This document shows, one piece after another, positions 19,147 through 40,458 of a stretch of DNA of 64,000 bases. The DNA is taken from positions 1 to 64,000 of the forward strand of contig CAITVK010000125.1 in assembly GCA_903895845.1 (NCBI GenBank), written 5' to 3'. The DNA is from an uncultured Chitinophagaceae bacterium (GTDB lineage: Bacteria > Bacteroidota > Bacteroidia > Chitinophagales > Chitinophagaceae). Below the pieces are notes generated by a model, which saw nothing but the letters and a program-made list of their open reading frames with translations, did no database searches and was not told the DNA's origin. The number at the start of each line of letters is the position of its first letter. The stretch's first letter is position 1. Made by a program: the position numbers and the translations under genes.

Positions 19147-19521
19147 AAAAATAAATGATTGATTGTGAGCGGTAAGAATGAAAAAATGTTGTTTTAAAAG
19201 ATGTATAACTGCAAATTTAGTAGAAAAATTAAGAATAATTTAGCAAATAAACAAAATATTTCCTCTGCCCGAATCAATTGTGGAAAAGATAATAATAAGT
19301 TAATGCTGATTTTTATCCAAAATCACAAGATTGGCGTCTTACAAAAGTCTTTAGCTATGGAAACAATCTTAGCAAAGCCACCCGCCACAGACAGTGCGAC
19401 AGTAGTCACTAACTGAGTTAATTCGATGTCCAACTAGCAAGAATGACATGGACTAGCTAAGGATCTAAGGGAATCTAAGAGCCTCTTCGACATCGATAAC
19501 CTTTTCGAGACATTCGTCTGT
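19147..19521. other. Intergenic region, receptor to xerD
   Basis: 375 nt. It holds the receptor promoter at 19212-19219. A 71-codon plus-strand frame (19201-19416) has no recognisable features and is judged spurious. I see no hairpin, repeat or RNA gene in 19260-19521. Confidence 0.5.
19212..19219 (-). promoter_or_regulatory. -7 promoter element for TonB receptor gene
   Basis: On the minus strand, TAAATTTG matches TAnnTTTG, 65 nt before the receptor ATG. Confidence 0.45.
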
Positions 19522-20424
19522 TTAGTATTTGTATGCAGGATGAAACCGCTGCAGTGTGCTTCTGAGAAACTCTTTATCTAAATGAGTATAGATTTCGGTT
19601 GTGGTAATGCTTTCGTGCCCTAACATCTCTTGTACGGCTCTTAAATCAGCTCCTCCCTCTACTAAGTGCGTAGCAAATGAATGACGGAAAGTATGCGGAG
19701 AAATGACTTTGGTTATGTTCGCCTTTAGTGCCAAATCTTTGATGATATAAAATACCATCACCCTCGATAAAGATGTTCCCCTATTATTAAGGAATACAAT
19801 GTCTTCGAAGTCTTTTTTGATACGTATCTGTTTACGATCTGTTTCAACATATAACCGAATATATTTCATGGCATCGCTGCCTATGGGTACCAGCCTTTCT
19901 TTATCACCTTTACCTATAACACGTATGTAACCTTCATTGAAAAACAGGCAACTGAGCTGCAAGTTTATGGTTTCGCTAACTCGTAATCCGCAGCTATACA
20001 TCGTCTCTAATATTGCTTTGTTCCGATGCCCTTCTGCCCTACTCAGGTCGATTGCCGCAATCATACTTTCTATTTCTTCGAAGCTAAGTGTATCAGGCAA
20101 TAACCTGATTGTCTTGGGGGCATCCAACAAAGTAGAAGGATCTGTTTTGGATATATCTTCCAACAAACAATACTTATAAAACCCACGGATACCCGAGATA
20201 ATACGCGCTTGTGAAGTAGCTGTCATCCCTAGTTCTGCCACCCATTTCACGAAAGCTTGTAAGTCTTTCAGCTCAATTTCTGCAGGATTCTTCATTGTCT
20301 TAGATGCCAACAAATACTCCGTCAGCTTCTCTACATCACGCAGATAAGCTTCCACCGAGTTATCACTCAGCGACTTCTCTAGTTGTAAATACGCCTTAAA
20401 TCCTTTTTTATATGGTTCCCACAC
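19522..20424 (-). CDS. xerD: Site-specific tyrosine recombinase XerD
   Basis: 300 residues, typical XerC/D size. The catalytic set is complete: Arg148 (CGLRVSE), Lys172 (GKGDKER), His244 and Arg247 (HTFRHSF), His270 (LGHESI) and nucleophile Tyr279 (TEIYTH). The N-terminal SAM-like core-binding domain spans 5-100. With XerC it resolves chromosome dimers at dif. It sits downstream of priA on the same strand, separated by a perfect 32-bp inverted repeat. Its chromosomal housekeeping context argues against a mobile integrase; XerC rather than XerD is the main alternative. Confidence 0.92.
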   Translation of the reverse strand: MWEPYKKGFKAYLQLEKSLSDNSVEAYLRDVEKLTEYLLASKTMKNPAEIELKDLQAFVKWVAELGMTATSQARIISGIRGFYKYCLLEDISKTDPSTLLDAPKTIRLLPDTLSFEEIESMIAAIDLSRAEGHRNKAILETMYSCGLRVSETINLQLSCLFFNEGYIRVIGKGDKERLVPIGSDAMKYIRLYVETDRKQIRIKKDFEDIVFLNNRGTSLSRVMVFYIIKDLALKANITKVISPHTFRHSFATHLVEGGADLRAVQEMLGHESITTTEIYTHLDKEFLRSTLQRFHPAYKY

Positions 20425-20430
20425 GTCTTT

Positions 20431-20544
20431 TAGTTATGAGTTATGAATGATGAGTTATGAGTTTTTGCATTTAGTAATTAATTATGAAATAGGATGAGTT
20501 TTTCTTCCTTTCACTCATAACTCATCATTCATAACTCATAACTA
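20431..20544. repeat. Perfect 32-bp inverted repeat made of heptamers, between priA and xerD
   Basis: Arms 20431-20462 and 20513-20544 are perfect reverse complements, built from TTATGAG, TTATGAA, TGATGAG, TTATGAG preceded by TAG. The spacer is 50 nt. The TAG at the outer right edge is the priA stop codon. It would form a strong hairpin in the priA-xerD transcript. Confidence 0.9.
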
Positions 20545-23046
20545 ATTTGGGTCTACATCCACTACAATACTTACACTTCTCCATCGTTTATCGCTTTGTA
20601 CTATTGCTATCTGTTGTTGAATCTCCCGTTTACACTGGTTGATGGTTGCTGCATCCTTTGGCAATTTAATCAATAGTTCCCAAAGATACTGATTACGCAC
20701 CCTATCCACAGGTGGTTGCGCTGGTCCATTTACGTATTGCCTAAAGTTTACTTGCAACCCTAGCAACATTATATTAGCCGCTTCCTCCGCCACATAACTA
20801 TCTCTATGTTTAAAGGTCAACTGTATGATTCTAAAGAAAGGCGGATATTGATACACAAGCCTCCCCTCAGTTTCATAATTATATAGTTGCAGATAGTTAT
20901 GACTCTGTACAAATCCCAATACCGGATGCTGCACATTGCTCACTTGTATCAATACCTTACCCTTGCCATCTTTCCGTCCCGCCCTTCCACTCACTTGCTC
21001 CATCAACTGGAAGGCTCGTTCGTTTACCCTAAAGTCTGCAAAGTGCAAGATACCATCGCCGTCTATGATGCCCACCAGATTCACATGTTCAAAGTCCAAT
21101 CCCTTCACCACCATTTGCGTACCCACCAATATGTTTATCCGTTGTTGTTCGAATAGTTTTATCAGGTTATCATGGTCATGCTTTCCTTTTACCGTATCAT
21201 AATCCATCCTAGCGACACGTGCGTTAGGAAACTGTTCTGCTACCATCTCCTCAAGCTTTTCTGTACCGAAGTTCTTCTGGATAAAGTTGTGACTACCACA
21301 TGCCGCACAAGTATGCAATACGGGATAGGTGGTGCCGCAGTAGTGACAACTTAATTTATTCTTCGCTTTATGATAGGTGAGACTCACATTGCAATGCTGA
21401 CATTGAGGTATCCAACCACAGTTGTTGCAGATCATATAGGGACTATACCCTCTCCTGTTCTGAAAGAGTATCACTTGCTTGTTCTGTGATAAAGACACTT
21501 CTATGGCAGCTAACATCTGAGGCGATAAAGCAATCTTGCTCTTGTCTTTATTGGCAATCAGTTTTAAATCTATCAGCTCAATAGTAGGTAAATCTACCTT
21601 ACCAAAGCGTTCAGATAAAGTCACCAATCCGTATTTATTCTGTAAGCAATTGTAGTAAGTTTCGATGGATGGCGTGGCACTTCCCAACAACACTTTTGCA
21701 TTAAACAAGGAGGCATAATAAATGGCTGAATCCCTTGCATGATAGCGTGGTGCAGGTTCTTGTTGTTTGTAACTGGCATCGTGTTCTTCATCCACCACTA
21801 TCAATCCTAAGTCTTTAAAAGGAAGAAACAAAGAGCTTCTAGCTCCCAAAACAACTTTTATCTGCCCATCCTTTACCTTATTCCATATCTCTACCCGTTC
21901 ATTGGGGTTGAATTTGGAATGATAGATGGCAATGTTCCCACCAAAATGCAATTGCAATCTGCGTATCATTTGTGCCGTCAATGCAATCTCGGGCAGCATA
22001 TACAATACCTGTTTGCCTTGTTGCATAAACTGTTCAATCAGCTTCATATACACCTGTGTCTTTCCACTGGCAGTAACGCCGTGCAATAGGCATACATTCT
22101 TTTCTTCGAACGATTTATTGATGGCATCAAAGGCTATTTGCTGCGCTTCTGATAGAACAAAGTCCAAATTCATATCCTTGGGCAGTGCCTTAATCCGATC
22201 TGTTGCCCGCTTCTCTCCTACTAATATCTTCTTTTCTATCAATCCCTTAAGCTGTGCAGCACTCGCATTTGCCTTCTTTAAAAGCGTTGATTGTGTTACC
22301 TCTCCTTCCGTTTTGGATAAATGCAGGTAAGCCAATAACAACTCCATTTGCTTTGGCGCATTAAATTTAGGTTCATTAAACAGTTGCGATAGCTTCTCTT
22401 CGTCCTTATAAACTGGATTCAATAGTATGTAGGTCTCAGTCTTGGTTTTGAATTTCTCTTTCAATTCCTCCCATACAAAACACACTTGTTTATCAATCAG
22501 TTTCTTGATAACAGGATACACATTTTGTGTGTCTAGTATTTGATGCACTTCACTCAATCGTAACTCTTTCTTCAATTCCAATGCCTGTGCCACCAAGTAT
22601 TCATTGTCCGTAAATGCCGAGCCATCATTGAGGTCGTAGTTGGTTTCTTCATTCCAGATCAGGATACTTTCACTAGATAGTTTCAGGTTAGCAGGGACGG
22701 CGGCCTGCATCACTTCCCCCTCACAACACATATAATAATTACTGATCCAGTTCCATAGTTTCAGTTGATTCTGATACAAAACCGGTTCATCATCCAATAT
22801 ATTCAGTAATTCTTTCGGCTCGAAGGCAGCCGGTTTTTCTTTGGTGATTGATTTAATGATGCCTGCATATTTTTTATTCCGCAAGTCTACTTCCACCCGC
22901 AATCCAATCTTTGCAGCGTCCCGCAGATGCGTAGGGATAGCCCAGGTATAGGTAACCGGCAACCAAAGCGGAATGATTACCTCGGCGTACAAACCATCTG
23001 TGGAGGGGGTGTGAGGAAAGAGACTACTGTTTTTGTTCGCACGCAT
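20542..23046 (-). CDS. priA: Primosomal replication helicase PriA
   Basis: 834 residues. PriA reloads the replisome at stalled forks. An N-terminal DNA-binding domain (YAEVIIPLWLPVTYTWAIP) is followed by the helicase core with Walker A GVTASGKT, DEEHD box II and the QVSGRAGR motif VI, and by the zinc-binding cysteines between them (CNNCGWIPQCQHC, CHYCGTTYP, CAACGS: eight Cys in pairs). The start ATG 23046 follows family length. The gene precedes xerD on the minus strand. Its TAG stop is the first element of the heptamer hairpin at 20513-20544. Confidence 0.95.
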   Translation of the reverse strand: MRANKNSSLFPHTPSTDGLYAEVIIPLWLPVTYTWAIPTHLRDAAKIGLRVEVDLRNKKYAGIIKSITKEKPAAFEPKELLNILDDEPVLYQNQLKLWNWISNYYMCCEGEVMQAAVPANLKLSSESILIWNEETNYDLNDGSAFTDNEYLVAQALELKKELRLSEVHQILDTQNVYPVIKKLIDKQVCFVWEELKEKFKTKTETYILLNPVYKDEEKLSQLFNEPKFNAPKQMELLLAYLHLSKTEGEVTQSTLLKKANASAAQLKGLIEKKILVGEKRATDRIKALPKDMNLDFVLSEAQQIAFDAINKSFEEKNVCLLHGVTASGKTQVYMKLIEQFMQQGKQVLYMLPEIALTAQMIRRLQLHFGGNIAIYHSKFNPNERVEIWNKVKDGQIKVVLGARSSLFLPFKDLGLIVVDEEHDASYKQQEPAPRYHARDSAIYYASLFNAKVLLGSATPSIETYYNCLQNKYGLVTLSERFGKVDLPTIELIDLKLIANKDKSKIALSPQMLAAIEVSLSQNKQVILFQNRRGYSPYMICNNCGWIPQCQHCNVSLTYHKAKNKLSCHYCGTTYPVLHTCAACGSHNFIQKNFGTEKLEEMVAEQFPNARVARMDYDTVKGKHDHDNLIKLFEQQRINILVGTQMVVKGLDFEHVNLVGIIDGDGILHFADFRVNERAFQLMEQVSGRAGRKDGKGKVLIQVSNVQHPVLGFVQSHNYLQLYNYETEGRLVYQYPPFFRIIQLTFKHRDSYVAEEAANIMLLGLQVNFRQYVNGPAQPPVDRVRNQYLWELLIKLPKDAATINQCKREIQQQIAIVQSDKRWRSVSIVVDVDPN

Positions 23047-36768: not shown

Positions 36769-37224
36769 CTATTTAGTGTATGGAATGTTTGTATTTGAAT
36801 CAATAAACTTCTCTATTGCTATAGTGAAGCCTTCTGCATTTTCGAGGTTACTAACATGCCCTGCATTAGGAATGAACACCTGCTTTGCGGAAGGAATTAA
36901 CGCCAATAACTTATTCTTTTTATTGGCATCAACATCGCCTGTTAAAACCATAACGGGAATAGTAATCTTTTGCGACTGAAGCTTTCCTGCCAAATCATTT
37001 CCTAATAAGAAACGAGGTTCGATGTGTAGCGGTTGCCAAGCTGTCCACTTATAAATCATATTCCACAGTGGTTTGCGCAGATTTTTTATGGGCTTACCCT
37101 CTCGAATGGTAAGTGCATTGTACCATGCTATTTTTTTTTGCAAGACTCCCTTCTTTTTATATAATTCAATTTCCGTTCTTCTCTTAGCAATCAGCGAATG
37201 AGTGTTTGGGAAGGTGCTTGGCAA
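36769..37224 (-). pseudogene. C-terminal half of an alpha/beta hydrolase
   Basis: 151 codons, of which all but the first few align with the C-terminal half of an alpha/beta hydrolase: PVMVLTGDVDANK carries the catalytic-Asp strand, and FIPNAGHVSNLENAEGF carries the catalytic His. The N-terminal half with the GxSxG nucleophile is missing. The reading frame enters directly from the repeat element at 37198-37387. The gene was probably cut by arrival of the cassette and is non-functional. No matching N-terminal half is found elsewhere in the window. Confidence 0.75.
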
Positions 37225-37387
37225 GAATGTTCCGTCTGCCGATGGACAATTGCTTAATTCTTGTTACAAAAGCCAAAAGTAAGAACAGAAGCCCAATAGT
37301 GTGACGTCCCCCGAAACAAAAGCTTAAAGAAAGTGCTGAAGCCGAGTTTGCTCCGTCCCCAGCCATATTTACTGATGTAAGCAGCAG
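37198..37387. repeat. Cassette-flanking repeat, copy 1
   Basis: It aligns over its length with 38027-38224. The most conserved block is 37288-37378 versus 38121-38215, sharing GAAGCCCAAT, CCGAAACAAAAGCTTAAAGA, TGCTGAAGCCGAGTTTG and CCAGCCATATTT in order. The left part is also related (TGTTCCGTC, CCGA). Terminal complementarity is poorer than in copy 2. It borders the truncated hydrolase gene on one side and the Imm33-like gene on the other. Confidence 0.75.
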
Positions 37388-37404
37388 TTTTTTCTAGCAG
37401 TCTC

Positions 37405-38004
37405 TCATATATTTTTAAGCGTGTCGTCATACCAAATGTCTTCATAGCCGTTTTTGTCTATAAGAAATCTATAACCAATATCAAGTCCCAAATACTTGAT
37501 AATGTCTGGTCTTAGTTGCAACAAATGTTCTGCACATATTGGTTGAAAAAAGTCGTCACGTTCTGAATAGTCGCCTGTCCAAATGAACCAACCTGTTGTT
37601 CCTTTTTCGTTTGGATGGCGTAGTCCATTAATTGGGTCTTTGTCAAGGTTAGCAGAAAAACCAACTCGCAATTTTTTGTTTATTGGCTTCCATTGAGAAT
37701 TATATGTTGCACAAACTTCTTTTTGTCGTTCAATATGCGAGTTCCAAGAATTGTAACTAATCAAGTCATCATGACCTGTCAAAAGTCTGTTTTTCCAAAG
37801 CTGGATATTGATTTTGTTTATTTCAAAGCTCATGTCTTCGCTGTCCCAGTCAAAAATTGTCTCTGAAATAACATCGTCATCTCGCCACTCTGTTTCGTCA
37901 TCAGTAATTACTTCCCAAGCAAAGTCTTGAATGAAAGTTTTATCAATCTTGTCATCCAAGAATTTGTCGCAGATGTCAATTAAATTTTGTCTGGTTATTC
38001 TCAT
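37405..38004 (-). CDS. Imm33/DUF2185-like protein, cassette gene
   Basis: 199 residues, no signal peptide. The C-terminal ~100 residues (LRVGFSANLDKDPINGLRHP, GTTGWFIWTGDYSERDDFFQP, HLLQLRPDIIKYLGLDIGYR, FLIDKNGYEDIWYDD; quoted in pieces) have the order typical of the DUF2185/Imm33 immunity-like fold, in which a GW..W.GEYS..DDFF.P segment is followed by LGL..GYRFLID..GYEDIW. N-terminal half: acidic, unassigned. Such proteins occur as immunity or orphan-immunity genes for polymorphic toxins. No toxin is adjacent. The gene lies between two copies of a ~200-bp repeat, so horizontal arrival is likely. The immunity role is inference. Confidence 0.7.
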   Translation of the reverse strand: MRITRQNLIDICDKFLDDKIDKTFIQDFAWEVITDDETEWRDDDVISETIFDWDSEDMSFEINKINIQLWKNRLLTGHDDLISYNSWNSHIERQKEVCATYNSQWKPINKKLRVGFSANLDKDPINGLRHPNEKGTTGWFIWTGDYSERDDFFQPICAEHLLQLRPDIIKYLGLDIGYRFLIDKNGYEDIWYDDTLKNI

Positions 38005-38026
38005 TAAACGGGTTGTCTAAAATTAC

Positions 38027-38224
38027 TGCCAACGACTAGTATTGAAAATGTGGCTGCCAAGGTTGTTCCGTCCACCGACCACTAAAACCCAATTACTAAT
38101 CGAAAACCAAATGTGGGCTCGAAGCCCAATATTGTATGATCAGCCGAAACAAAAGCTTAAAGAAATTGCTGAAGCCGAGTTTGTTCCGTTCCCAGCCATA
38201 TTTGCAATACTGATGTTGGTGGCA
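38027..38224. repeat. Cassette-flanking repeat, copy 2, with inverted ends
   Basis: Left arm 38027-38056 (TGCCAACGACTAGTATTG...TGGCTG) and right arm 38193-38224 are imperfect reverse complements over about 30 nt, enclosing ~136 nt. A folded single strand would be a long hairpin with bulges, as attC sites are. The internal block matches copy 1. Confidence 0.75.
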
Positions 38225-38251
38225 GGCGGTTGTCGTCAAGGTGATTGTGCT

Positions 38252-38953
38252 TTATTCGCTATGCTTTATTTGCTTTTTGCGTATGTACCCTTGAAATTGG
38301 ATGCTGTCCCTGCCATAGATTTCAACCTGTATAAAGTAATTTGTTTCTTTTAAAGCAGTCAAGGTTGTTCCCTCAGAAACAGTTGTCAATGGTGTCGAGT
38401 TCACATTTGGCTCGCTGTATAAAGTTGCTGCTTGTGTTGTCGTCCATGTAGCAGAGTTGTTGGTAGTAATGTTGGTGACTGATGAATATCGTGGACGGAC
38501 AAAGACCCATAAGAAAAGCAGCACCAAGATAGACAAGAGGACTTTTGCAAACGTGAAATGCCGTGGCTTGGGTATGTACCCTGCGTTTGTTTTTGCGATA
38601 TACTTCTGATTTGCTATTTTCTCAAGCCTAAAATATTCATTAATACTTTTCAGTACGTCAATAATGGCTGTTGATTCGGGGTAGTTGTTCGGATTGTAAT
38701 TTGAATTGCCATTTGAATTGTTCCCGATGTCCTCAAATGATTTCAAGGTATCGTCATATTCTTTACGCTTGGTTGGGTTTGATAAGATTTCGTTTGCCTC
38801 GTTGATGTTCTTAAACATTTCTGCAAGGAAGTCGTCCCCATTGTTTTTATCTGGGTGGAATTTCATTGATAGCTTCCTGTAGGCTGATTTCACTTCTTCC
38901 TGTGTTGCGGAATGTGTCAAGCCTAATATGTCGTAGTAATTTTTAAAAGCCAT
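38252..38953 (-). CDS. Membrane-anchored DnaJ-domain protein with SH3-like C-terminus
   Basis: 233 residues. A J domain covers residues 5-70 (YYDILGLTHSATQEEVKSAYRKL cores YYDILGL and KSAYRKLSMKFHPDK, the HPD motif included), then an Asn-rich linker, a membrane helix (about 133-152, FAKVLLSILVLLFLWVFV), and a bacterial SH3-like region (TTQAATLYSEPNVNSTPLTTVSEG...). J proteins stimulate DnaK; the anchor would place that activity at the inner membrane with the SH3 part outside. It ends a three-gene minus-strand operon (39663-38252; gaps of 5 and 3 nt) in an island. Specific role unknown. Confidence 0.85.
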   Translation of the reverse strand: MAFKNYYDILGLTHSATQEEVKSAYRKLSMKFHPDKNNGDDFLAEMFKNINEANEILSNPTKRKEYDDTLKSFEDIGNNSNGNSNYNPNNYPESTAIIDVLKSINEYFRLEKIANQKYIAKTNAGYIPKPRHFTFAKVLLSILVLLFLWVFVRPRYSSVTNITTNNSATWTTTQAATLYSEPNVNSTPLTTVSEGTTLTALKETNYFIQVEIYGRDSIQFQGYIRKKQIKHSE

Positions 38954-38956
38954 TGT

Positions 38957-39220
38957 CTAATGTTTAGAAATATAGAATAGGAATGCGGCTACTGCTACAA
39001 GCAAAAAGAATACGATGACATTCCGATTGGTCCGCTTTCTTGCCTCATCAATTGCACTGGCGCAATCGTAGCAAACGCTTTTTACTGTATAATGTGTACT
39101 GTTTCCATAAGTTATGCGTTTGCCATAGTTGACCCTTTTGGTTTGTCCACTATATATTTCACGCCTGTAAACATTTTCATTTGCCGGCATTTGTTTGCCG
39201 CAGTTGTTGCAAATAGCCAT
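38957..39220 (-). CDS. Zinc-ribbon small membrane protein
   Basis: 87 residues. CNNCGK (Cys4, Cys7) and VCYDC form a four-cysteine zinc ribbon; the C-terminal helix VIVFFLLVAVAAFLFYI anchors it. Between them are charged Tyr-rich residues. No known family recognised. It lies 5 nt after the 145-residue gene and 3 nt before the DnaJ gene, so the three are co-transcribed and likely act together at the membrane. Confidence 0.75.
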   Translation of the reverse strand: MAICNNCGKQMPANENVYRREIYSGQTKRVNYGKRITYGNSTHYTVKSVCYDCASAIDEARKRTNRNVIVFFLLVAVAAFLFYISKH

Positions 39221-39225
39221 TGTAA

Positions 39226-39663
39226 TTATTTTAAGTCCCGAAAGCCAACTAAGTAATCATTCTCAAGTATAAGCTCAAGTGTATATCTATAATTCCCCAA
39301 CCTGTTTACATATTCCCCGTAGTACCATTTTTCAGTTACGGTGTCTTTGTAAATGCTTTTCTTGATGTCGTTCGGCTTCCCACGGCACATTAGCAATAAG
39401 TGCATCGGCATATCCATCCAGATTTCCCCATCGATTACTTTTTGGGCCGTGTCTTGCCCGTAGGCTTTTGCAATCTGGGCAATTGCATTTGATTTTGCGG
39501 TTTGGGCATTTTGTTCTGCGGCTTCATATTCGGATATTGCTGTTGAAATTGCATCGTTCCTTTCATCGCTCTTTGTTAGTTGTAACCAAAAATTGTAACC
39601 AATGAAGGCGAGTGTCAAAAATACCCCAATGTAAAAAATCATTTCCCTGTCCATAAGGTTCAT
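39226..39663 (-). CDS. Hypothetical membrane protein, first gene of the DnaJ operon
   Basis: 145 residues. One N-terminal membrane helix (about 8-25), an Ala/Gln-rich helical linker (NDAISTAISEYEAAEQNAQTA), then a small beta domain with WMDMPMHLLLMCRGKPNDIK and EKWYYGEYVN. The latter pattern (G-x-P-x-x-I ... E-x-W-x-Y) resembles BamE/SmpA-like small domains, but this is only a resemblance. ATG 39663 follows a likely promoter region at 39664-39745; no precise box recognised. Confidence 0.65.
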   Translation of the reverse strand: MNLMDREMIFYIGVFLTLAFIGYNFWLQLTKSDERNDAISTAISEYEAAEQNAQTAKSNAIAQIAKAYGQDTAQKVIDGEIWMDMPMHLLLMCRGKPNDIKKSIYKDTVTEKWYYGEYVNRLGNYRYTLELILENDYLVGFRDLK

Positions 39664-39821
39664 AAGTTTGATGTTTATGGAGTCGGGGCTTTAGCTTGCC
39701 ACCAACTCTTAAATAGAGCGCACAGCAGATGGGTAACTATTTTTTTTGTATGTTAGAAATCAATCCGTTACAAAAATATCCGCCACTTTCTTGTGTGTCG
39801 CCAATACAATATTACAGCTTT

Positions 39822-39923
39822 TTATATTTCTAAATCCAAACTATCCAATGTGCTTAATATTTTCAATAAATCCTTGTCACTGTTGTGCAAATAGCGAAAA
39901 GTGGTTTTTATGCCATTATGTCC
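39822..39923 (-). pseudogene. Remnant of tyrosine integrase (C-terminal tail)
   Basis: The 33 codons before the TAA at 39822-39824 read GHNGIKTTFRYLHNSDKDLL..STLDSLDLE (in part). That is the box II/tyrosine tail of Bacteroidota tyrosine recombinases: GH followed by the nucleophile Tyr in RYLH and the conserved LD-N/S-L end. The frame further upstream turns into the 42-bp repeat array and does not encode the rest of the enzyme. It is a decayed integrase end. Confidence 0.7.
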
Positions 39924-40458
39924 CACTATCTTTTTGCTCCACTCCTGCCATATTGCTGGTAAACATGACACACAAATATCTATTCCTAAAAGATTAACAT
40001 TTGGGCACTGCCACCCCAAAACACCTCTTTTAGTCCCTAAAATAGTAGTAAATAGCCTTTTTTTGCCCCAAATCAGGCTTTTTGCCAATACTAGGTGTGT
40101 TTCCTCGCGAGGAAAGTGACCTAAAGTTTCCCCTAGGTGGGTTTCCTCGCGAGGAAAGTGACCTAAAGTTTCCCTTAGGTGGGTTTCCTCGCGAGGAAAG
40201 TGACCTAAAGTTTCCCTTAGGTGGGTTCTTTTCTGCCTTATCAGACACAAATTAAAAATAGCAGTCAGCTAAAAGTAGAAATAAAGGCCAAGTACTAAAG
40301 GTGGCATCCTATTTGACCTTTATGCCAACAGAATTATCGTTTCTTATTAGGTTACCACTCCACTCCAGCAAAGTGTAGCCGCAGCAGGGGATATCGCGAT
40401 GGTTGGTTGAATCGGTTTTTATTAAATCATTTTTTCATCACCTTCAAAATTTTCACCC
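39924..40458. other. Intergenic region between island and the 40459 gene
   Basis: Apart from the 42-bp array (40091-40225), I see no gene. Frames through the array (minus strand) encode PPKGNFRSLSSRGN-type repeats and are probably products of the repeat. The remainder is unremarkable. Confidence 0.45.
40091..40225. repeat. 42-bp tandem array of two alternating palindromes at 21-bp spacing
   Basis: Three units at 40100-40141, 40142-40183 and 40184-40225. Each has the perfect 16-bp palindrome TTTCCTCGCGAGGAAA followed by ACCTAA-N8-TTAGGT, itself a dyad. The centres of the two dyads are exactly 21 bp apart (40107.5 and 40128.5). A half-unit (CTAGGTGTG) precedes the first copy at 40091. No spacers, so not a CRISPR. 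Confidence 0.92.

Follow-up and report, generated by a model that had tools for sequence, protein, structure and literature searches.

Background

The closest described counterparts of the locus treated here are the integrons, known for spreading antibiotic resistance and including the chromosomal integrons of Vibrio and the reverse-orientation ones of Spirochaetota, in which an integrase gene with its attI site heads a tandem array of cassettes, mostly of one gene each and pointing in one direction. Before insertion an integron cassette is a circle, whose site (attC) is closed when its two ends join at G|TT. Here we analyse a 64,000-nt stretch of DNA (the window; positions 1 to 64,000 of contig CAITVK010000125.1, assembly GCA_903895845.1) from an uncultured Chitinophagaceae bacterium, which contains a short putative cassette array, together with longer arrays from the same genome and from related ones. 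Like integrons, these arrays have an integrase and an attI-like site at the head, tandem one-gene cassettes in one direction, a site 3' of each gene with a predicted cut at G|TT, core complementarity across the cassette, paired boxes that form a predicted hairpin with unpaired spacers of unequal length, very diverse cargo and, in one array, a decayed integrase. They differ from integrons in that the integrase lies outside the IntI clade, lacks the IntI-specific insertion and has an extra N-terminal domain, in that most sites are about 205 nt long (shorter ones occur too), and in that the integrase is usually co-directional with the cassettes and only rarely divergent from them in the classic manner. 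On the evidence of the sequences we hold it very probable that the arrays belong to an integron-like system of gene cassettes in Bacteroidota, which would work as an integron does; by the usual definition it is not an integron, because the tests for the IntI domain and for membership of the IntI clade fail.

The other relevant comparison is with archaeal XerA and with XerC/XerD, which resolve chromosome dimers at a single dif site and which, to our knowledge, do not head cassette arrays; XerA is the enzyme family nearest to the integrase by NCBIfam score. As for the phylum, a passage on IntegronFinder 2.0 describes complete integrons as rare in Bacteroidetes proper and names one, in Salinibacter, and a review counts Bacteroidota among the integron-bearing phyla. 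No account of a cassette system such as the present one was found among the top-ranked titles and abstract openings of the open-access PMC literature (subscription papers and preprints lie outside it), and the system has apparently not been described before.

Cassette boundaries and the attI-like site

A sequence-only reading of the window had recognised two repeats with related internal blocks on either side of one Imm33-like minus-strand gene. This description holds: the repeats, att1 and att2, are about 205 bp long and bracket the gene (Table 1), and the best ungapped block common to both covers 83 nt at 88%. Since BLAST with att2 as the query found 22 places in the same genome (half-copies among them), the repeat is not a product of chance. 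The largest array of the genome, on contig C98, comprises ten copies in one direction, with 0.75–4.7 kb between successive starts (one of the ten is truncated at the edge of the contig and one is degenerate), and is headed by an intact gene for a tyrosine recombinase of 413 aa (19435–20673, minus strand), hereafter the C98 integrase; contig C93 carries five copies and contig C67 three, of which one is a weak, partial match. The same reading had proposed a Bacteroidota cassette system without a known integrase and had suggested looking for one encoded elsewhere. The cassette system stands, and the lack of an integrase does not: an integrase, though not IntI, is encoded beside the arrays, at the head of that on C98, and as a remnant in the window. 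A second remnant, 81% identical to the C98 integrase, lies on contig C134. As the sequences show, each repeat of about 205 bp belongs with the gene before it, a cassette consisting of one gene (or a few) and its own site; the integrase would release a cassette as a circle when it joins two cores at G|TT, and would insert circles at attI or at another site.

Because an integron circle is closed in this way, the right core of a site in a linear array belongs to the next cassette and is expected to match the left core of the next site, not that of its own. For all pairs with a locatable AAC and GTT, the right core of a site (7 nt following GTT) was compared with the reverse-complemented left core (7 nt preceding AAC) of the next site. 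Among 93 consecutive pairs (25 loci), 88 agree at 6 or more of the 7 positions and 66 perfectly (mean 6.60), the five failing pairs having 5, 5, 5, 3 and 2 of 7; the core pair of the second window cassette, which is outside the 93, has 5/7. The left and right cores of one and the same site reach 6/7 in only 3 of 105 cases (mean 3.47), other pairs within the same array do so in 25 of 427 (mean 3.41), and 5000 within-locus permutations gave no mean above 4.85. Since a core matches the next site and not its own, the mobile unit, by sequence, is a gene plus its own site, bounded from G|TT to G|TT, with the exact base of the cut being a presumption from the sequence. The idea that the repeats are elements of the repetitive extragenic palindromic (REP) or miniature inverted-repeat transposable element (MITE) type, or terminators, which merely lie between genes, would account for their near-palindromic form, for their position between open reading frames (ORFs) and for the half-copies lacking a second arm in the same genome. 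It predicts neither that a copy agrees at its end with the beginning of its successor, and not with its own opposite end, nor an attI-like core beside the integrase, and we regard it as barely credible.

Such an attI-like core (GTT plus 6–7 of 7 positions matching the first site) lies 3' of the integrase stop codon in all 24 readable loci, perfectly matched in 19; of the 40 loci taken, 16 were excluded, 14 without a first site and two without a clear AAC. The distance from the stop codon is at most 220 nt in 18 loci and 325–1520 nt in the other six, where the matching core may belong to the end of an undetected site instead of being attI. The sequence that precedes the core is similar in many loci (GCGTATATTTA.GA|GTT). 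In the window, the core GTTGGTGGCA (39706–39697) matches the left core of att2 at 7/7, as an exact 10-mer, and of the 12 GTT positions between 38230 and 39820 no other has as many as 5/7; when both strands of the whole window are taken, 6/7 to this left core is reached at 8 of 2409 GTT positions. The same ATTTAAGAGTT as at the window attI was found beside the C98 integrase.

Folding of the sites

Inverted ends of att2 and possible single-strand folding, as in attC, had also been noted from the sequence alone. The inverted ends are present and the folding is modest: as a single DNA strand att2 has a z-score of -1.93, with 6 of 200 shuffles as good, and att1 shows no such tendency (see below). 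The broader suggestion of attC-like foldable repeats finds its support in the family of sites. Of the 99 full-length sites, 52 were non-redundant (<70% identity) and had a length of 195 nt or more. In an alignment of 51 of these, the decayed att1 not being included, RNAalifold placed a 15-pair helix just inside the cores, in which 12 pairs are changed on both sides. Cells of the alignment are paired in 90.7% of cases against 59.9% in shuffles, 231 cells against 88 are changed on both sides, and the covariation score is 0.700 against 0.184 (none of 500 shuffles as high); it is at most 0.149 when the structure is slid by 1–3 columns, a comparison that favours the tested structure, which was derived from the same alignment. 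Between the outer core and the stem 4–6 bases are unpaired on the left and 6–8 on the right, and the spacers of attC are likewise asymmetric. The span from AAC to GTT in this set is 186–198 nt (median 189), with the core GTTRNNNG(C/T), the attC core consensus being GTTRRRY. Judged by this covariation, the two arms of a site form a hairpin by pairing; by analogy with attC, the recombining form is probably a single folded strand, though the integrase lacks the IntI-specific insertion that makes such use possible in IntI.

The integrase is neither IntI nor XerC/XerD

The best NCBIfam models for the integrase are XerA (194 bits, cut-off 220) and, second, the integron integrase model TIGR02249 (169 bits, cut-off 265), positions 180–239 of which are unmatched on the C98 integrase; the XerC and XerD models give 159 bits against cut-offs of 335 and 330. 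In all 40 integrases aligned, the catalytic R, K, H, R, H and Y columns are invariant. The conserved R and H are 58–61 residues apart in 40 of 40 integrases and 100 apart in 19 of 19 IntI proteins of the same phylum, which indicates that the IntI insertion of about 40 residues (the I2 helix region) is absent from all 40; in two Xer-like proteins of the same genome the spacing is 62 and 66. Passages of PMC9668308 present the IntI insertion as the defining, activity-giving domain, and PMC7790495 holds the I2 region to be the innovation that enabled single-strand recombination.

In a quick tree of 95 sequences (named ones hand-picked, those <250 or >620 aa left out), the 19 IntI proteins form one clade with 4 non-Bacteroidota sequences (Shimodaira–Hasegawa-like approximate likelihood ratio test, SH-aLRT, 100). 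The Bacteroidota integrases fall in a separate, weak clade (SH-aLRT 81), which also holds 4 non-Bacteroidota sequences, the deep order not being resolved; a sequence from a Chitinophaga pinensis metagenome-assembled genome (MAG) pairs with one from the window's family with support 100, which points to Chitinophagaceae as that family. The structural model of the Flavobacterium enshiense integrase (mean predicted local distance difference test score 85, predicted template-modelling score 0.58) has an extra N-terminal domain of beta-beta-alpha-beta-beta-alpha topology before the usual two, and weak matches to DUF5710 (E up to 1) were obtained for 11 of 21 integrases. The best fold match of this model in the PDB is IntI4 with attC (2a3v), and the archaeal XerA/XerC-XerD family came first in the PDB sequence search (4a8e). 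Membership of IntI was rejected on the grounds of the missing insertion, the position outside the IntI clade and the missed TIGR02249 cut-off. Likewise rejected was orthology to XerC/XerD, because of the low scores and because the two other Xer-like genes of the genome are only 27–28% alike to the C98 integrase.

An ordinary but divergent integron, whose IntI and long, diverged attC sites are missed by survey tools, would explain a good part of these observations: architecture, position of the GTT/AAC core, attI, cargo and gene order all fit integrons, and both the top structure match and the second-best NCBIfam model point the same way. The integrase nevertheless falls well short of the TIGR02249 cut-off, has the short R-to-H spacing and groups outside the strongly supported IntI clade, if in a weak one, and the sites have their own length range and a core other than the attC consensus. 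We regard a divergent integron as improbable.

Distribution and cargo

Loci around integrases of relatives were taken at 39 of 70 places. Site matches (E 0.01) lie near the integrase in 29 of the 39, in 26 of them co-directionally 3' of the integrase and in three (L119, L120 and L127) in divergent order on its other side, for which reason a rule that sites always lie 3' of the integrase was rejected. No site match was found in 10 of the 39 loci; in nine of them the contig ends <1.6 kb beyond the integrase on its 3' side. In the 93 cassettes delimited between cores (median 702 bp; ORFs called mechanically), exactly one ORF of at least 80 aa is present in 75, which agrees with the earlier suggestion of single genes in tandem between repeats, and the longest ORF runs in the array direction in 91 of the 92 cassettes that have an ORF of this length. 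The alternative that the repeats occur singly and without genes does not describe the data, which are mostly arrays, though solitary half-copies exist in the window's own genome. Solitary left halves of the site were seen there at L026, L027, L028, L029, L030, L031 and L033, that of L030 with a piece of the right arm, and those of L028 and L029 continue into a shared-looking tail, AAACCAGTTT.TAACT.GAAT.

The cargo is very mixed. Among 113 proteins (109 of 114 array-direction cassette ORFs and 4 from the window), 83 Pfam families were matched, and of the 25 families listed by protein count two occur in 2 proteins and 23 in one. Examples are Imm33-like proteins, the streptomycin adenylyltransferase family, D12 methylase, AbiV, PD-(D/E)XK, FRG and glyoxalase. 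No cassette is common to different genomes among the 93 cassettes and the window's two; identical 280-bp cassettes occur twice in one array (L115, 16406–16685 and 18717–18996), which we take as a sign of cassette duplication. The only Rfam match in the loci L021–L023 is a DUF805b RNA motif (RF02914) at L021 3933–3968, within a cassette array; at the gathering threshold no Rfam family was found for the repeats of these loci. Just upstream of the intact integrase on C98, an ORF (L034, 2633–2983) reads by eye like a single-strand DNA-binding protein.

In the window's family, the integrase is present in 57 of 147 genomes (E 1e-40 or better) and one site or more in at least 110 (E 0.001), three or more in at least 91, these counts being lower bounds, as at most 16 site candidates were scored per genome; to judge by the genome identifiers, both scans covered one and the same draw. 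Three or more sites were found in 53 of the 57 genomes with the integrase against 38 of the 90 without a match (Fisher p 1e-10). Sites in genomes without an integrase may resemble CALIN (attC clusters without an integrase) or may belong to divergent integrases missed by the strict cut-off. That housekeeping XerC/XerD move the sites, as in pdif modules or in elements of the IMEX type, with the adjoining integrase incidental, has in its favour that XerC/D-like genes are present in the window's own genome, that many genomes have sites and no integrase match, and that Xer-dependent modules exist in other bacteria. It is countered by the integrase and attI-like core that head arrays in many genomes of the family, and by the correlation of integrase presence with site number; the sites, moreover, are presumably not dif-like. 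We consider a role of XerC/XerD highly unlikely.

The site model was trained in the window's family and found few sites in other families, so a sequence-free rule (chains of exact 7-mer core matches) was applied there. By this rule, and among the matches listed, two or more cassettes form a chain in 8 of the 80 named loci, compared with 6 of 1600 shuffled sequences, and three or more do so in 3 of 80, compared with none of 1600; the chain-bearing loci come from F. enshiense, Winogradskyella ursingii, Seonamhaeicola aphaedonensis, Algibacter onchidii, Rufibacter sp., a Flavobacteriaceae bacterium, a Sphingobacteriales MAG and a Bacteroidetes MAG. The first core follows the integrase stop codon by 35–179 nt in L143, L149, L157 and L168. 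Of 295 genomes of the class, 145 contain a homologue of the integrase (E 1e-40), which does not imply arrays in all of them. IntI proteins above the TIGR02249 cut-off occur in 105 of 395 genomes of the phylum, and among the IntI genomes listed only one (G180, from the same order) is marked as belonging to the window's class, whose share of the 395 is not given.

Several observations weigh against reading these arrays as an integron-like system. Recombination itself is known here only by inference from sequence, and direct evidence of recent shuffling is thin, one identical pair among 95 cassettes. No site was detected in L123, where 9 kb of sequence follow the integrase on its 3' side; the sites on the integrase 3' side in L095, L097, L099 and L112 are partial and score <25 bits, and L097 has a stronger match (32 bits) on the other side of the integrase. 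At least one site is present in 55 of the 90 genomes without an integrase match. With regard to folding, att1, the left core of which is decayed (TAC for AAC), folds no better than its shuffles (z-score +0.62; 145 of 200 as good), and in the alignment neither the number of pairs in which both sides have changed (12 against 11.4 in shuffles) nor that of further pair types (37 against 33.3, with 34 of 500 shuffles as high) is an outlier. Finally, the use of a single strand is a supposition, and published work links such use to the I2 helix, a region that these integrases lack.

The element in the window and its junction with a hydrolase gene

With an attI-like site and an integrase remnant at one end (Table 1), both overlooked in the sequence-only reading, positions 37184–39935 form one small decayed integron-like element. 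The order in this part of the window is integrase remnant, attI, cassette 1 (145-aa, 87-aa and DnaJ-SH3 genes), att2, cassette 2 (Imm33-like gene), att1, hydrolase 3' part and GH43 gene. Beyond the 37-residue stub, no further match to the integrase gene was found inside the window; the integrase would have decayed to this stub, leaving two cassettes behind. Tandem repeats with a 42-nt period are present upstream of the remnant (40091–40227, 3.3 copies) and upstream of the intact C98 integrase (L053, 5498–5717, 5.2 copies), with the same period and differing sequence.

Table 1. Features of the putative decayed element and of its junction, in array order
Feature	Position in the window	Strand	Details
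Remnant of integrase C-terminus	39825–39935	minus	aa 377–413 of the C98 integrase, 78% identity, E 1e-10
attI-like site	39691–39725	minus	...TCTATTTAAGA|GTTGGTGGCAAG; putative cut between 39706 and 39705
145-aa gene, first gene of cassette 1	39226–39663	minus	no Pfam family at E 0.001
87-aa gene, cassette 1	38957–39220	minus	two small families matched weakly, below cut-off
DnaJ-SH3_3 protein, 233 aa, cassette 1	38252–38953	minus	Pfam DnaJ 1e-25, SH3_3 5e-6
att2, attC-like, closes cassette 1	38019–38228	minus	left core TGCCACC-AAC (38224–38215); right core G|TT (38033/38032)
Imm33-like protein, 199 aa, sole gene of cassette 2	37405–38004	minus	Pfam PF24719, 8e-41
att1, attC-like, closes cassette 2	37184–37390	minus	left core decayed; 5/7 to att2 right core
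3' part of hydrolase gene	36769–37194	minus	meets att1 no more than 3 nt from the putative cut 37195|37194

The sequence-only reading had also taken a hydrolase gene to be cut at the junction, which proved correct. Only aa 513–644 of a 648-aa hydrolase from the same genus (genome G047, L252) are matched in the window (79% identity over 132 aa), and the match starts at 37191, 3 nt from the predicted att1 cut (ATTCG|CTGATTGCTAAG). The host DNA at the junction, CTGATTGCTAA, resembles the core GTTRNNNGC, with one T replaced by C by eye. This would be the last site of the array, att1, joined to the hydrolase gene at a core-like sequence, as recombination at a secondary site predicts. The 5' part of the hydrolase gene has no match within the window, so the join was accompanied by a rearrangement or a deletion. 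Among 12 other genomes of the genus, G047 is the one that matches the hydrolase piece; there the hydrolase is whole (648 aa) and has the same GH43 gene (86% identical) as its neighbour, the two not being separated by an array, so that in the one matching relative the arrangement of the window does not appear as ancestral.

Links to resistance genes

A tblastn search of PLSDB gave 467 records at E 1e-20, including near full-length matches on Bacteroidota plasmids; many of the 467 are probably unrelated Xer-like proteins. Acinetobacter plasmids carry a truncated gene of the integrase family, annotated as 'xerD/TnpF', with 52.5% identity to the Seonamhaeicola protein over 62% of it; on pJAT2044 and pHH1107 a gap of 189 nt separates the truncated gene from tet(X3), which follows it, and a left site arm starts 9 nt after tet(X3) (26.4 bits, E 9e-8, model positions 2–85). 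A simple reading of tet(X3) as a cassette is opposed by the core pair across the gene, which does not reach 6/7 (4/7 by eye); the right site arm was not found after tet(X3) on the two plasmids. In two reports, xerD adjoins tet(X14), its role being called interesting to validate (PMC7473080), and a tetX-catB11 cluster adjoins XerD (PMC11194056). A Chryseobacterium plasmid (L255) has an element of about 190 bp, GTTGGGAAAAATCG...GAGCTGGCC, four times (at about 11116, 13211, 15592 and 18661), apparently at the G|TT of sites and beside an integrase gene named by NCBI 'site-specific tyrosine recombinase/integron integrase'. The element could represent either a mini-cassette or a site-specific insert.

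A further parallel comes from Riemerella anatipestifer, in which, according to passages of PMC13148043, aph(3')-IVb with a 140-bp segment at its 3' side enters the chromosome without homology, a segment that the authors liken to attC. The similarity to the present cassettes (a gene with a foldable 3' segment in a Flavobacteriales host) is drawn from the description, and the words 'integrase' and 'recombinase' were not found in the text of that report.

Implications

Taken further, the results would mean that Bacteroidia run a second integron system, with a recombinase lineage other than IntI and with sites folded without the IntI domain, widespread where IntI was found in one listed genome, and that this system is the source of tet(X3)-type cassettes and the answer to homology-free gene capture in Riemerella; we lean towards this wider view by a narrow balance. 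As IntegronFinder demands the IntI-specific domain, according to a passage of PMC9668308, a survey tool with this requirement would be expected to miss the system. The finding gives a testable identity to the 'xerD' beside tet(X) genes and to the capture of genes without homology in Riemerella. And with an integrase devoid of the I2 region, the system can be used to test whether the I2 step was needed for single-strand recombination or whether another domain serves in its place.
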